Below, piece after piece: positions 96 through 10,545 of a DNA stretch of 14,966 bases. Source of the stretch: a bacterium. Its GTDB lineage: Bacteria > ARS69. Position numbers and translations under genes: made by a program. Within the stretch, counting starts at the first letter, position 1. The number at the start of each line of letters is the position of its first letter. The notes below the pieces were generated by a model that saw nothing but the letters and a program-made list of their open reading frames with translations, ran no database searches and was not told where the DNA came from. Location: positions 1 through 14,966 of the forward strand of contig JALGZO010000040.1 in NCBI GenBank assembly GCA_025774865.1, given 5' to 3'.

Positions 96-3000
96 ATGCG
101 TATGCGTATGCGGCCCCAGCCCGGGCTCATGTCATCGCTCGCGCTCGGGCTCGGGCTCGCGCTCGCGCTCGCGACGGTGGCGCCGGCGGCCGGCGGCGGA
201 ACCGGCTTCCCCTCGAACCAGCCGTTCGCGTCCTACTGGTTCCCGAACGAGCTCCTCACGTGGACACCGGGCACCGACCCCGATTCGGACTACAACCGCG
301 GGACCGTCCCGCTCGTCGACCGATTCACGAACCCCGATACGCAGGTCAACCCGAACGCCCGCGACGGCGAGGCCCTCGTGGCCGCGCTCGGCGTCATGTA
401 CCCATCGACGTCGAACAACCCTTCCCAGGGCTCCGACCAGTTCGACGTCTACGCCTTCGGCTACTGGCAATACGTCGACCTGCTCGTCTTCTGGGGCGGC
501 TCCGCCGGCGAAGGATTGATCCTGGCCCCGAGCCCCGGCGTCATCGACGCCGGGCACCGCCACGGCGTTCCGGTGCTGGGGACGATCTTCTTTCCGCCGA
601 ACGTCTTCGGAGGGCAGATCCAGTGGGTCCACGACCTCGTGCAGAAGGACGGCGCCACGTTCCCGGTGGCCGACAAATTGATCGAGGTGGAGGAGTACTA
701 CGGCTTCGACGGCTGGTTCCTGAACCAGGAGACGAACGGCGGCGACTCGACCCTCGCGCTCCAGATGCAGGACTTCCTCAAGTACTACCAGGCGAACAAG
801 CCGGCGGGGCACCACATGATGTGGTACGACGCCATGATCGACAATGGCAACGTCGCGTGGCAGAACGAGCTCAACGAGCGCAACGAGATGTTCTTCGAGG
901 ACATGGGCCGCGTCTCGGACTCGATCTTCCTCAATTTCAACTGGGCGAGCGGAACGCGGCTGGCCGATTCACGCGCCAAGGCGATCTCGCTCGGCCGTAG
1001 CCCCTACGACGTCTTCGCCGGCATCAACGTCCAGCCGACCGGCTACAACACGTCGGTGAACTGGGCGAAGCTCTTTCCGGACTCGATGGTACACACGACG
1101 TCGATGGGCTTCTTCGGGACGGAGTGGACGTACGCGAGCTCGTCGAGCCCTTCGGACTTCTATCAACGCGCGAGCACGTTCTGGGTCGGTCAGAACGACG
1201 ATCCCAGCAACACGACGACCGCCCTCGCCTGGAAGGGAGTCGCGCACTACTTGCCGGCGAAGTCGTCGATCAACGACGTGCCCTTCGTCACGAACTTCAA
1301 CGCGGGTCAGGGCGACTTCTACGCCGTCGACGGTGAAGTACTCCACGTCGATCCGTGGAACAACCGGAGCCTCCAGGACGTGCTGCCGACCTGGCGCTGG
1401 ATCGCCGAGAGCGCGGGCACGGCCCTCTCGGCCGAGCTCGACTTCACGGACGCGTACGACGGCGGCGCCTGCCTGAAGGTGTCCGGAGCACTCGATCCCT
1501 CGAGCACGACGCATCTCAGGCTCTACAAGACGAGCCTCGTCGTCCCGGCGGGCGGAGCGCTCACGATCGCCTACAACACGGGCGCGATCGGACCATCGTC
1601 GATGCAGGCAGGGCTCGCGTTCGAGAGCGACGAGAGCTCGTTCGTGTTCTTCGATGTCGACTCGACCGGCACGACCGGATGGGACACGCAGACGATCGAT
1701 GTGAGCGCCCATGCCGGCGAGACGATTGCCGTCATGTCGCTCAAGTTCGAGGCCCCGGGTTCGATCCCTGCCTACGAGATGAAGGTCGGGCGATTCGGAC
1801 TGCTCGACGGACCGGTGGATGTTCCCGCGGCGCCGGCGAACGCAGTGCTCGACGACGTGGTCTTCTCGATCGACAAGCGCATGGCGAGTGTCCGACTCCA
1901 GTGGGACCACTCCGCCGATCCGACTTACTCGTACTACGTCTATCGCCGGAATCCCGACCTTTCGCGAACCTACCTCGGCGGCACACCGAACAACGCGCTC
2001 TTCATCACCGAGCTGGTCCGGGCCGACGCCGAAACGACCGCCGTCCTCGAGATCGAGGCGGTGAGCCCCGAGTTCGGGCGCTCCGCACCGGGTACCACGA
2101 GCGTCTTCTGGGGACTCGATCCCCCGAACACGCCGCCGACCTCTCACGCGAACGGCCCGTATTGCGGCACGCCCGGCCAGGCCATCCGGTTCCACAGCCA
2201 GGGGACGCTCGACCCGGATGGATCGATCGTCACGTATCTGTGGGAGTTCGGCGACGGCGACACGAGCCCGCTCGCGGACCCCACACACTCCTACGCCGCG
2301 ACCGGTGACTACGAAGTGATCCTCACGGTGACCGACGATCTCGGGAGCGTGATCGCCGACACGACGCAGACCAGCGTCGTCTCCGTGCCCGCGGACCTCG
2401 CGGGGAACGTCGCGTGGTACCCGTTCGACGACGGCAGCGGCGCCGTGGCCGCCGATTCCTCCGGCAACGGCAACGACGGCACCGTCGTCGGCGCCACGTG
2501 GACTACCGGGAAGTTCGGCGGAGCTCTCGATTTCGACGGCGGCGACGATTACGTCATCGTGAGCGACTATCCGAAACCCGAGAGCACGATCACGGTGTCA
2601 GCCTGGGTCTGGGCCGAGAGCCGCCCCGCCTGGGGATCGATCGCCAAGAACTGGGCGACGCAGAAGGGTTCGTTCCACTTCGGGCTGTACTCCGACGACG
2701 GTGACCTGCAGGTGACCGTGGGCGAGGCCGACGAAGAAACGGCCGACATTCGGGAAGGCCCGACGAGTCCACTGCCCCTGCAAACGTGGGAGCACGTGGC
2801 GTTCGTCGCGGACGGCACCGAGGCACGCCTCTACCGGAACGGAGTCGAGGTCGGCGCGGCGTCCTACGACGGGACTTTGAAGACCAATCGCCCAGGGCTC
2901 GGGATCGGCGTGAAGCTCAGCAACAACGGGAGTGGGCCGAACGCCGGGGTACCTGCGTACTGGGACGGGATCATCGACGACGTCCGCATCTGGGATTGGA

Positions 3001-3359
3001 GCCTTTGCCAGTCCGAGATCGAGTCGCTGCACTTCGACGGTGTGACCGACGTGGTGATCGGCCCGACCGGTGCTGCATTTCGCGAGTTTTCCCTCGGCCA
3101 AAACCATCCGAATCCGTTCCGGGCCGCGACCGAAGTGGCGTACGCCGTCCCGCACCCGGGGCACGTGACGATCGCGGTGTACGACATCGCGGGGCGGAGG
3201 GTCGTCAACCTCGTCGATCGTGAGCAGGAAGCGGGCGCATACGTGGTCCGGTGGCACGGCCGCAACCAGGATGGTCAGATCGTCGCCCCCGGCGTGTATT
3301 TCTACCGGATGGCCGCCGGGGATTTCACGGCGGTCAAGAAGCTCATCGTTCTCCGCTAG
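96..3359 (+). CDS. Secreted GH85 endo-beta-N-acetylglucosaminidase with PKD, LamG-like and C-terminal sorting domains
   Basis: GH85 enzymes cut the chitobiose core of N-linked glycans, leaving one GlcNAc on the protein. The 1087-residue product begins with a signal peptide (basic MRMRMR, Leu/Ala/Gly core about 15-26, likely cleavage near residue 33). The GH85 barrel spans about 45-400; FDGWFLNQET carries the family's catalytic Asn/Glu pair as N210 and E212. A beta-sandwich (about 400-590) and fn3-like region (590-680) follow, as in known GH85 proteins. Next come a PKD domain (680-765, YLWEFGDGDTS near 714), a LamG/concanavalin-like domain (770-980) and a FlgD/type IX-like tail (997-1087) starting FSLGQNHPNPF and ending KKLIVLR. 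The product is probably secreted and surface-attached or released. Three in-frame ATGs (96, 102, 108) compete as starts and no clear Shine-Dalgarno is seen. The family call is firm; the secretion route is inferred. Confidence 0.88.
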   Translation: MRMRMRPQPGLMSSLALGLGLALALATVAPAAGGGTGFPSNQPFASYWFPNELLTWTPGTDPDSDYNRGTVPLVDRFTNPDTQVNPNARDGEALVAALGVMYPSTSNNPSQGSDQFDVYAFGYWQYVDLLVFWGGSAGEGLILAPSPGVIDAGHRHGVPVLGTIFFPPNVFGGQIQWVHDLVQKDGATFPVADKLIEVEEYYGFDGWFLNQETNGGDSTLALQMQDFLKYYQANKPAGHHMMWYDAMIDNGNVAWQNELNERNEMFFEDMGRVSDSIFLNFNWASGTRLADSRAKAISLGRSPYDVFAGINVQPTGYNTSVNWAKLFPDSMVHTTSMGFFGTEWTYASSSSPSDFYQRASTFWVGQNDDPSNTTTALAWKGVAHYLPAKSSINDVPFVTNFNAGQGDFYAVDGEVLHVDPWNNRSLQDVLPTWRWIAESAGTALSAELDFTDAYDGGACLKVSGALDPSSTTHLRLYKTSLVVPAGGALTIAYNTGAIGPSSMQAGLAFESDESSFVFFDVDSTGTTGWDTQTIDVSAHAGETIAVMSLKFEAPGSIPAYEMKVGRFGLLDGPVDVPAAPANAVLDDVVFSIDKRMASVRLQWDHSADPTYSYYVYRRNPDLSRTYLGGTPNNALFITELVRADAETTAVLEIEAVSPEFGRSAPGTTSVFWGLDPPNTPPTSHANGPYCGTPGQAIRFHSQGTLDPDGSIVTYLWEFGDGDTSPLADPTHSYAATGDYEVILTVTDDLGSVIADTTQTSVVSVPADLAGNVAWYPFDDGSGAVAADSSGNGNDGTVVGATWTTGKFGGALDFDGGDDYVIVSDYPKPESTITVSAWVWAESRPAWGSIAKNWATQKGSFHFGLYSDDGDLQVTVGEADEETADIREGPTSPLPLQTWEHVAFVADGTEARLYRNGVEVGAASYDGTLKTNRPGLGIGVKLSNNGSGPNAGVPAYWDGIIDDVRIWDWSLCQSEIESLHFDGVTDVVIGPTGAAFREFSLGQNHPNPFRAATEVAYAVPHPGHVTIAVYDIAGRRVVNLVDREQEAGAYVVRWHGRNQDGQIVAPGVYFYRMAAGDFTAVKKLIVLR
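138..173 (+). repeat. Six tandem hexamers CTCG(C/G)G in the signal peptide
   Basis: Six consecutive 6-base units (CTCGCG, CTCGGG twice, CTCGCG three times) encode residues 15-26, the Leu-Ala/Leu-Gly hydrophobic core of the GH85 signal peptide. The unit length is a multiple of three, so gain or loss of a unit would lengthen or shorten the core by two residues without a frameshift. Confidence 0.85.
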
Positions 3360-4971: not shown

Positions 4972-6771
4972 CTAGCGCTCGATCTTCAGTACCGAGAGAA
5001 AGGCTTCCTGCGGAACGGTGACGGATCCCACCTGCTTCATCCGCTTCTTGCCCTCCTTCTGCCGCTCGAGGAGCTTGCGCTTCCGCGTGATATCTCCGCC
5101 GTAGCACTTCGCCGTGACGTTCTTGCGGAGCGCGGACACCGTCTCGCGCGCGATCACCTGGCTCCCCACCGCAGCTTGGATCGCGATCTTGAACTGCTGT
5201 CGCGGGATCACTTCCTTCAGCCTCTCGACGAGGTTCTTCCCCCAGCCGTACGCCTTTTCCTTGTGGACGATGATCGAGAGAGCGTCGACCTTGTCGCCGT
5301 TCAGAAGAATGTCGAGCTTTTGCATCGGCGCCTCGCGGAACCCGTCGAACTCGTAGTCGAAGCTCGCGTACCCGCGCGTGATCGATTTCAGTCTGTCGTA
5401 GAAGTCGAAGATGATCTCCGAGAGCGGAAACTCGTAGTGGAGGACGGCGCGCGTCGGATCGAGGTACTCCATTCCGCGCTGAACACCCCGACGGTCCGAG
5501 CCGAGCTTCATGATGTTGCCGATGTATTCCGTGGGTGCGACCACCTCGGCCCGGATGATGGGCTCGCGGATGCTCGCGACGTCGCCCGGCGGCGGGAGCT
5601 GGTGCGGGCTTTCGATCTCGCGGAGAGCACCGTCGTTCATGACCACATGGTACGGAACCGTCGGGACGGTCGCGATGAGCCCCAGGTCGAACTCCCGTTC
5701 CAGACGCTCTTGCACGATTTCCCGGTGCAGGAGCCCCAGGAAACCGCAGCGGAACCCGAATCCGAGCGCGGTGGAGGTCTCTGGCTCGTAATGGAGCGAC
5801 GCGTCGTTGAGCTTGAGCCGGTCCAATGCGTCGCGCACGTTCTCGTAGTCTTCCGCATCGATCGGATAGAAGCCGGAGAACACCATCGACTTCGCTTCAG
5901 CGTAGCCGGGTAACGGCCCCGACGCCGGACGATCGCGGTCCGTGATCGTATCGCCCACCTTCGCGTCGGCGATGTTCTTGACGCCGGCGATCATGTATCC
6001 CACGTCGCCCGCCTCGAGCTTCTGCTGTTTCTGCATCTCGAGACGAAGCGTCCCCACTTCGTCCACGAGATACTCCCGGCCGTTCGAGAAGAAACGAATC
6101 GTTTGCCCCGCCTGGATCGTTCCCTCGACGACACGAATGTAGGCGATCGCCCCGCGATACTGGTCGAACGCCGAGTCGAAGATGAGCGCCCGCAGCGGCG
6201 CCGCCGAATTCCCCTGAGGGCCCGGGATTCGGCGGATCATCTCGTCGACCAGCGGCTCGATGCCCACGCCCGACTTCGCGCTGATCCGCAACACCGGCCC
6301 GTCCCCGCCGAGGAGATCGCGGATCTGGGCCTCCACGCGGTCCGGAGCCGCGCCGGACAGGTCGATCTTGTTGATGACGGGTATGATCTCGAGCTCGTGG
6401 TTCAGCGCCAGATGGAGGTTGGAGATCGTCTGGGCCTCCACGCCCTGACTCGCATCGACCACGAGGACGGCCCCCTCGCACGCCGCGAGGCTCCGCGATA
6501 CCTCATACGAGAAGTCCACGTGTCCTGGTGTATCGATGAGGTTGAGTACGTAGTCGCGGCCCTCGGAGGACCGCCAGTTCATGCGGATCGCGTGCGCCTT
6601 GATCGTAATGCCCCGCTCTTTCTCGAGATCCATATTGTCGAGAACCTGCCCCTGCGCTTCCTCCTCGGAGAGCGTGCCGGTGAGCGCGAGCAGACGATCG
6701 GCCAGCGTGGACTTGCCGTGATCGATGTGCGCGATGATGCAAAAGTTGCGGATGTGCGAGAGGTCCGTCAT
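4972..6771 (-). CDS. lepA: Elongation factor 4 (LepA), ribosome-associated GTPase
   Basis: LepA/EF4 is a translational GTPase that acts on the ribosome during initiation or elongation. The 599-residue product is full length for the family. GTPase motifs are AHIDHGKS at 14-21, RGITIKA at 53-59, DTPGH at 80-84 (with the catalytic-type H84), NKID at 134-137 and SAKSG. The LepA-specific C-terminal domain is present (AYGWGKN, then a basic stretch with [15 protein letters not shown]), replacing EF-G domain IV. The start ATG overlaps the lepB stop in ATGA (6768-6771), so the two are translationally coupled as in many bacteria. The stop lies 4 bases from the end of the converging Rho-N-like gene. Confidence 0.98.
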
Positions 6772-7622
6772 GGAGCGTCGGCGCTGGCTTCCTTTGCTTC
6801 CGTCAGCGGAGCGGCGGCCGCGGCGCCCGGACCGGGCGACGACGGGAGCGCCGGCTCCCCCTGGAGTGTTTCAGCGTAGAGCCCCCGATAGTCCTTCGCG
6901 AGCCAGGTGCCGATACGCCGGATTCGCGGGCGCCCGAGGAACAGCTGGAGGAATCCCTTGATCCATCCCTCCGACATGTTCTGCACCCAGAGAGGAGAGC
7001 GTTGCGGATCGGTCGACCAGTACAGGACGAACGCGCGGCCCACGACGCGTATGGGATCGAGCTCGTTGCTGTAGCGGCTGTCCTGGCTGTTGTTTCGATT
7101 GTCCCCCATCATGAAGAGCGCCTTCGGGGAGATCTTCAGCGGGCCGTAGTCGTCTCGCGGGTTACCGCCGCGGACGAACTTCAGCGCCTTGTACGGTTCC
7201 TGAATCGGACGCCCATTGATGTACACGTCGTTCGACTTCAGCTCGATGGTCTCGCCACCGACCGCAATGCAGCGCTTGATGTAGTCACGGCTCGTCAGCG
7301 GATCCTTGAATACGATGATGTCTCCGCGGCGAGGTTCGCGGAACCCCGGCAGGCGCCACCGTGTTCCGGGAACTCTGGCTCCGTACGTGATCTTGTCCAC
7401 GAGCAGAAAGTCGCCGATGAGGAGCGTGTCCTCCATGGATCCGGAAGGAATCCGAAACGCCTGCACGATGAAGGTCCGGATGACCAACGCGATCAGCAGG
7501 GCGTAGATCAACGTCTTCAGCGTCTCGTGGCCGCCGGAACGCTTGGGCGGCTTGGACGGTTTGGGCGCCGTCCCCGGTCGAACGGTTCCGGTGCGGCGAG
7601 CGCGTGTCTTTGTCTTGGCCAT
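6768..7622 (-). CDS. lepB: Signal peptidase I
   Basis: This membrane serine protease removes signal peptides from exported proteins. The 284-residue product has a basic, Pro-rich cytoplasmic start (about 1-30), one membrane segment (about 34-55), and the S26 family boxes: [10 protein letters not shown] with catalytic S62, [12 protein letters not shown] with general-base K116, and [12 protein letters not shown] at 172-183. After the family core it carries a C-terminal extension of roughly 70 residues ending in an Ala/Pro/Gly-rich tail, which is not catalytic. A Shine-Dalgarno (GAGG) lies 4 bases before the ATG. It is in an apparent operon with lepA downstream and the DUF5683-like gene 41 bases upstream. 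Confidence 0.97.
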
Positions 7623-7663
7623 GGTTCCTCAGTGTCGGTGCGGTGCGCTTTGTCTTGCTTCCT

Positions 7664-8131
7664 CTAGAACCGGACCCCGAATTCCAGGGAAGTTCCGTCC
7701 TCGGCTACTCCGGCGAAGAGCTCCCGCCCTTCTTCGAGATCTTTCTCGAAGTCCCCCAGGTACGCATCGACGTAGGCGTCGATCGCTCCGTAGAAGCTCG
7801 CCACAATCCCCCAAAAAAACAAGTCCCGGCGACGACCGTAGTGATCCTCCGCCGCCGCCTCCGCCACTTCCATCCGTCCGGGATCGGTTTCTCCCGCCGC
7901 GATTCGATCCCACTCCCGCGCTGCTCTCGTCTCCTGAATCACCCTCGTCAGGAGATATGTCTCGAACGTGAAGAGAACCGCCGCCTTCTTGTACTTCCCG
8001 TTCGTGACCTGCCCCCACGCCGGGAAGACCGCGCTTCGAACCGCTCGTCGGAACGGCGAGGGACCCTCCCAGTCGTCCGCCCGGGCGTCACGCGGGACCG
8101 CCGTCGTGCAGAGAGCCGCCGCCACGAGCAC
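7664..8131 (-). CDS. DUF5683-like exported or membrane protein
   Basis: The function is unknown. With the GTG start proposed here the product has 155 residues: a hydrophobic signal-like start (about 1-22, cleavage after ARA before DDWEG), then SAVFPAWGQVTNGKYKKA, typical of DUF5683-like proteins, a hydrophobic helix, a charged linker, and FFWGIVASFYGAIDAYVDAYLGDF near the C-terminus. The open frame continues upstream to an ATG at 8221, but those 30 codons are the tRNA-Sec gene, so that start is rejected. AAGG at the tRNA 3' end precedes GTG 8131 by 7 bases; GTG 8125 is an alternative. The signal start lacks the usual N-terminal basic residues, which leaves some doubt over the start. Upstream of lepB by 41 bases. 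Confidence 0.7.
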   Translation of the reverse strand: MLVAAALCTTAVPRDARADDWEGPSPFRRAVRSAVFPAWGQVTNGKYKKAAVLFTFETYLLTRVIQETRAAREWDRIAAGETDPGRMEVAEAAAEDHYGRRRDLFFWGIVASFYGAIDAYVDAYLGDFEKDLEEGRELFAGVAEDGTSLEFGVRF

Positions 8132-8141
8132 CAGCAGACCT

Positions 8142-8239
8142 TGGCGGGAATGTGTGGGAATCGAACCCACCTCGGATGGTATCAGCACCCGACGGAAGGA
8201 TTTGAAGTCCTCGAGGTTCACCAGAACCTACCCATTCCC
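8142..8239 (-). tRNA. selC: tRNA-Sec (anticodon TCA)
   Basis: Selenocysteine tRNA, read by SelB at in-frame UGA codons. The 98-base minus-strand sequence folds as follows: an acceptor of 8 pairs (GGGAATGG with ACATTCCC; seven Watson-Crick pairs and G-A at the eighth), a 6-bp D stem AGGTTC/GAACCT with a 4-base loop, an anticodon arm with loop CTTCAAA (anticodon at 8203-8205), a long variable arm of 7 bp (TCGGGTG/CATCCGA, one G-U), a 5-bp T stem GTGGG/CCCAC with loop TTCGATT, discriminator G and an encoded CCA. The 6-bp D stem, long variable arm and TCA anticodon are diagnostic. The 5' end overlaps ridA by 12 bases, and a protein gene begins 10 bases past the CCA. Confidence 0.96.
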
Positions 8240-8620
8240 TCGGTCCAACGCCACGACTTCGATCTCCACCTTCGCACTCAGCGGCAACTGCTTCACCGCG
8301 ACCGTCGAACGCGCCGGCGGTTGTCCGGAGAAGTACTCCGCGTAGACCTCGTTCATCTCCGCGAAATCCGCCATGTCCGTGAGAAAGACCGTCGTCTTGA
8401 CGACACGGGACAGGTCCGTCCCGGCGGCTTCCAGTACGGCGCTGACGTTATCCAGCACCTGGCGGGTCTGCTCGGAGACCCCGCCCGGCGCCAGCTCCGT
8501 GGTTCCGGGAATCAGGGGAACCTGCCCGGCGGTAAAGACGAAGCCCGCCGCGCGAATGGCCTGATGGTACGGGCCAATCGCCGCCGGGGCAGCTGAGGTC
8601 GAGACTACCGTTCGATCCAT
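8228..8620 (-). CDS. ridA: RidA family reactive enamine/imine deaminase
   Basis: RidA (YjgF/YER057c/UK114) hydrolyses reactive enamine/imine intermediates such as 2-aminoacrylate. The 130-residue product fits the family: IGPYHQAI at 15-22, FTAGQVPLIPGT, a central ADFAEMNEVYAEYF, and PPARSTVAVKQLP with the conserved Arg at 104. A longer open frame extends upstream through glmS in another frame; ATG 8620 is chosen because the family begins here and GAAGGA lies about 7 bases before it. The last residues (RGNG) and the TAG stop are encoded inside the 5' end of tRNA-Sec, and extend slightly past the usual VEIEVVAL ending. Lies 95 bases after glmS; no promoter is evident between them. Confidence 0.95.
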   Translation of the reverse strand: MDRTVVSTSAAPAAIGPYHQAIRAAGFVFTAGQVPLIPGTTELAPGGVSEQTRQVLDNVSAVLEAAGTDLSRVVKTTVFLTDMADFAEMNEVYAEYFSGQPPARSTVAVKQLPLSAKVEIEVVALDRGNG

Positions 8621-8714
8621 CGGACGTCCTTCGGAAAATGGCCTGCCACGCGCGCCCGCCCTGGACCCTGGCGTCCTGGCCGCCGGCGGGATGCCGGATC
8701 TCGGCCTCGGGACC

Positions 8715-10545
<1,831 letters not shown>

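Follow-up and report, generated by a model that had tools for sequence, protein, structure and literature searches.

How can a bacterial gene for selenocysteine tRNA (selC) share its nucleotides with protein-coding genes, and what can a single transcript of such a locus then deliver? The question is raised by the window, the whole stretch of 14,966 nucleotides analyzed here, which is one contig (C40) of a MAG fragmented into 785 contigs, with a completeness of 92.65% and a contamination of 8.3%. The host genome is about 4.7 Mb in size and shows no extreme compaction. On the minus strand of the window, the gene order is galE, two tRNAs, glmM, glmS, ridA, selC, DUF5683, lepB, lepA and hemW. Positions 96-3359 code for a 1087-aa GH85 (endo-beta-N-acetylglucosaminidase family) protein, probably secreted, with PKD, LamG-like and FlgD-type C-terminal domains. 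Five genomes represent the phylum of the window; a further lineage, L039, came from a DNA-pattern scan of GTDB contigs and brings the number to six. The own group in the comparisons consists of these six lineages (the window, L025, L027, L030, L031 and L039), with no more known, and the wider comparison set comprised 136 deduplicated selC loci from several phyla. The features around selC are as follows:

8228 to 8620, minus strand: ridA (TIGR00004, PF01042), with its TAG at 8230-8228 inside selC
8146 to 8239, minus strand: selC, tRNA-Sec nucleotides 1-94 with a UCA anticodon, from ARAGORN, Rfam RF01852 and the predicted cloverleaf
8142 to 8145, minus strand: discriminator G and CCA end of the tRNA-Sec, encoded in the sequence as GCCA
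8228 to 8239, minus strand: 12-nt overlap of ridA and selC in the sequence, where GGG AAT GGG TAG (Gly-Asn-Gly-stop) equals tRNA nucleotides 1-12; the only overlap among 70 ridA-selC pairs
7664 to 8221, minus strand: DUF5683 open frame (PF18935), open through selC from tRNA nucleotide 19, in a frame common to all six lineages
6768 to 7622, minus strand: lepB (TIGR02227), the next gene downstream of DUF5683

Judged by its sequence, the tRNA-Sec looks functional. ARAGORN called it at 8239-8142 on the minus strand with the anticodon UCA, RF01852 scored 72.7 bits at 8239-8146 on the same strand (gathering score, 47), and the predicted fold was a cloverleaf with a long variable stem. Other tRNA-like matches in the MAG scored far under this true selC. 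The tRNA-Sec is probably also in use in the group, since SelB was found in all five genomes (selB of the window genome lies on a separate contig, C584) and SelA in three of the five, the remaining two being incomplete. The eighth acceptor pair is non-canonical in the own group (G-A, or G-G in L027) and also in L018, L080 and L082, the stem being seven pairs plus a mismatch. In other groups, a selD-like gene lies directly upstream of selC, with its stop about 7 nt before the tRNA (L080) or abutting it (L084). The promoter scan of 7600-8800, using the sigma-70 consensus only, recognized no selC promoter. No tmRNA above the cut-off was found in the MAG, itself fragmented, where the best match was a 28.6-bit tRNA-like partial; this absence may reflect incompleteness or a divergent tmRNA. 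In the predicted fold, the ridA leader and the DUF5683 trailer pair over 5 bp beside the acceptor stem, but the longer fold was not clearly better than shuffles.

On the upstream side, ridA was identified by 169.5 bits to TIGR00004 (cut-off 106.25) and 146.8 bits to PF01042 (27.3). The preliminary description had placed the last four codons of ridA, including TAG, in the first 12 bases of selC on the same strand, and the coordinates 8228-8239 proved to be exact. The TIGR00004 match stops at residue 125 of 130, ahead of the tRNA. This overlap is not conserved and is a one-off of the window genome. A ridA gene ends within 150 nt upstream of selC in 70 of the 136 loci (own group, 5/6; phylum of G065, 14/30; phylum of G176, 49/59; phylum of G138, 1/6; other families, 1/35). 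Only the window pair overlaps, and the other 69 have a gap of 3-131 nt. In the four ridA-bearing relatives, the ridA stop precedes the tRNA by 26, 39, 60 and 67 nt, and in L030 glmS, not ridA, precedes selC. The nucleotides T10-A11-G12 are present in selC of all six lineages, so that a spacer deletion joining ridA in-frame to tRNA nucleotide 1 would gain a stop instantly; the overlap and its stop need no selection. A 518-codon frame of L035 that also ends inside selC was rejected, as it is of low complexity and looks like a spurious GC-rich frame.

The preliminary description overlooked a second overlap, at the DUF5683 end of selC, and this is the more telling one. The DUF5683 protein matched PF18935 with 40.8 bits (gathering score 26.7), and in every lineage of the group its frame can be read back without a stop as far as nucleotide 13 of selC. 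The PxWGQ motif follows the tRNA at a distance of 111, 114, 117, 126, 138 or 237 nt, a multiple of three in all six. Over the first 60 nt past the tRNA, the codon score summed over the six lineages was +27 bits for the DUF5683 frame and −77 and −87 bits for the other frames. With signal peptides assessed by hydropathy, a hydrophobic core starts about 1-13 codons past the CCA in the group, and signal-peptide-like cores follow the CCA in the window (GLLVLVAAALC), L025 (LVVALLVAL), L031 (FLVLFGVVLLAL), L030 (PLLFALLAGVIL) and L039 (RGFAAGVAALLAAVFLG). Between the tRNA and this core, no ATG, GTG or TTG occurs in five of the six lineages; L025 is the exception, with one such codon after the tRNA, inside the core and lacking a Shine-Dalgarno. 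The DUF5683 proteins of the group form one clade (support 100/99). Four start codons were considered in the window:

8168 to 8170, minus strand: candidate start GTG at tRNA nucleotide 70 (T stem), giving MGSIPTHSRQGLLVLVAAAL..., present in six of six lineages
8219 to 8221, minus strand: candidate start GTG at tRNA nucleotide 19 (D loop/stem), with TAGG 5 nt upstream (anti-SD −7.1 kcal/mol)
8159 to 8161, minus strand: candidate start ATT (AUU) at tRNA nucleotide 79, with GAGGTG 6 nt upstream (8173-8168; anti-SD −7.1 to −7.9 kcal/mol)
8129 to 8131, minus strand: alternative start GTG outside the tRNA (nucleotide 109), with AAGG upstream, inside the hydrophobic core (anti-SD −3.3 kcal/mol)

The GTG at nucleotide 70 would most likely be the start, with the GTG at nucleotide 19 and the AUU at nucleotide 79 as alternatives. 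It has no well-spaced Shine-Dalgarno; proteins read from it begin MGSIPTHSR(Q/H), a normal-looking n-region. The code for this positively charged n-region of the signal peptide would lie in the T loop, 3' acceptor strand and CCA end. AUU starts are rare. The predicted cloverleaf would bury every start inside the tRNA and also forms in the longer transcript, so that translation from inside the tRNA would need unfolded or nascent RNA.

A different explanation is that DUF5683 starts just past the tRNA from a weak start (GTG at nucleotide 109 in the window, ATG at nucleotide 121 in L027, CTG or TTG elsewhere) and that the open frame of selC is incidental. AAGG lies a few bases before the GTG at 8131, and the ATG of L027 has a fair Shine-Dalgarno (−7.5 kcal/mol), so that DUF5683 may start outside the tRNA in these two lineages; taken by itself, the window allows such a start. 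In other phyla, too, selC is by chance crossed by open frames (L116, L120 and L134). However, L025, L030, L031 and L039 contain no downstream ATG, GTG or TTG with a Shine-Dalgarno that would leave an intact signal peptide, and the sequence scores as coding from the first codon after the CCA. Across the group, the frame is kept in all six lineages, and a usable downstream start is absent from four, weak in the window and fair in L027. We consider a start beyond the tRNA rather unlikely as the general explanation.

It had also been proposed from the window that RidA output and tRNA-Sec supply are antagonistic, selC processing by RNase P leaving the ridA mRNA without a stop. RNase P cleaves at tRNA nucleotide 1, and 3' processing exposes the CCA end. 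A cut at 8240/8239 removes the TAG, and one transcript therefore cannot yield both mature tRNA-Sec and normally terminated RidA. This part of the proposal stands as a matter of logic, following from the anatomy of the window, and a ridA mRNA cut there would still code the whole family match, so that only release would be affected. Conservation of the ridA-selC adjacency across several phyla makes co-transcription plausible, and a like logic has been proposed for selB-selC (PMC8124441). Nevertheless, an evolved trade-off gained no support and is quite improbable: the relatives, in which a gap between the genes had been named beforehand as refuting the proposal, do have gaps, of 26, 39, 60 and 67 nt, with the ridA stop upstream of the tRNA in all that carry ridA; 69 of the 70 pairs have no overlap; the RidA family match is complete before the tRNA begins; and RidA is not known to have a role in selenocysteine insertion.

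The neighbourhood itself extends well beyond the window, with ridA directly upstream of selC in 69 further loci across several phyla (e.g. L016, L091, L103, L149 and L151). It possibly marks a functional link, given that 2-aminoacrylate is removed by RidA and that SelA acts via an aminoacrylyl-tRNA intermediate. Among the papers searched, none linked ridA with selC, and a Rid-family survey makes no mention of tRNA (PMC4433059).

An assembly or contamination artefact, as might be feared from 785 contigs, 92.65% completeness and 8.3% contamination, can hardly account for the locus, because the codon structure is intact, L039 comes from a separate named record, and on the DUF5683 side the idea is refuted by five other lineages, assembled independently, that share the gene order and the frame relation.

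The history of the cluster was approached through other phyla. DUF5683 also follows selC in the phyla of G176 and G138, with the complete ridA-selC-DUF5683 order in G176, and a clear GGAG-type site lies directly past the CCA in several other-phylum loci (L143, L144 and L114). In those two phyla, all 30 of the 30 selC-DUF5683 loci have an in-frame ATG, GTG or TTG between the tRNA and the hydrophobic core or at the core itself, often with a strong Shine-Dalgarno (as in L143 and L144). This contrast with the window group does not represent independent events, because the six lineages share descent and the loss of the start may be a single event. It is likely that ridA-selC-DUF5683 is an old co-directional cluster of genes that were separate at first. 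The selC-DUF5683 spacer and the start region of DUF5683 would have been lost in the ancestor of the small uncultured phylum-level group of the window. Later, in the window lineage alone, the ridA-selC spacer would have been lost, and the TAG already in the tRNA would have become the ridA stop.

In conclusion, we favour the reading, with a probability of about 0.6, that DUF5683 starts within selC, that transcripts of ridA, selC and DUF5683 are used either for tRNA-Sec or for the proteins, and that the arrangement arose by compaction. One DNA stretch thus probably codes for tRNA and protein alike. The three genes would be on a shared transcript; its processing to tRNA-Sec would leave the ridA message without a stop and the DUF5683 message without a start, and unprocessed transcripts would give RidA and DUF5683. 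With the start and the n-region of DUF5683 in selC, each transcript would give tRNA-Sec or DUF5683, never both. Tolerated compaction is a likelier account of the conflict between tRNA and protein than an evolved switch, given that a single lineage has the ridA junction and that the analysis revealed no regulatory element. More tentatively, a conserved membrane protein may draw its start codon, ribosome-binding site and n-region from the tRNA gene throughout the group, each transcript being committed to tRNA-Sec or to DUF5683 and, in the window, also to terminated RidA; processing of tRNA-Sec could then be tied to envelope or metabolite-repair functions. If the favoured reading is right, translation of a secreted or membrane protein would begin within the 3' part of a bacterial tRNA gene, which would thereby have two uses, and gene callers that put DUF5683 starts past the tRNA would mis-annotate them. 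The nesting idea known from selB-selC would then widen to new partners.

Nesting of selC in selB, or overlap with it, has been described in Alphaproteobacteria, Dyella/Luteibacter and Nitrospirae (Mukai 2021, PMC8124441). There, an either/or use of the transcript was proposed, in which the upstream mRNA is left without a stop and the downstream mRNA is leaderless; the overlap is conserved yet non-essential and lost in some species, and the model was proposed without experiments (PMC8124441). As in selB-selC, the tRNA-Sec of the window overlaps protein code on the same strand and an either/or use of the transcript is proposed, with the ridA overlap missing from relatives. The stop inside the tRNA-Sec lies at nucleotides 46-48 in Dyella/Luteibacter (PMC8124441) and at nucleotides 10-12 in the window. 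Unlike in selB-selC, the tRNA-Sec gene is paired with the 3' end of ridA and the 5' end of DUF5683 instead of with selB, the phyla are different, and the start and n-region of the downstream gene appear to lie inside the tRNA in the window group. Animal mitochondria have tRNA-ORF overlaps, such as tRNA-Lys within cox1 of Armadillidium (cited in PMC8124441), where, as would hold here, excising the tRNA strips coding sequence off the neighbouring message; the window differs in being from a bacterial genome of about 4.7 Mb, with no extreme compaction, and in involving tRNA-Sec. In the selCAB operon, the tRNA-Sec ends at position −2 of the selA start codon (cited in PMC8124441). There, as in the window, selC abuts the start of the next gene, but those genes only abut, whereas in the window DUF5683 is the downstream gene and its start appears to be inside the tRNA. 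The either/or model is thus known already from selB-selC, and what is new here is that the partners differ and that the downstream gene appears to start within the tRNA.
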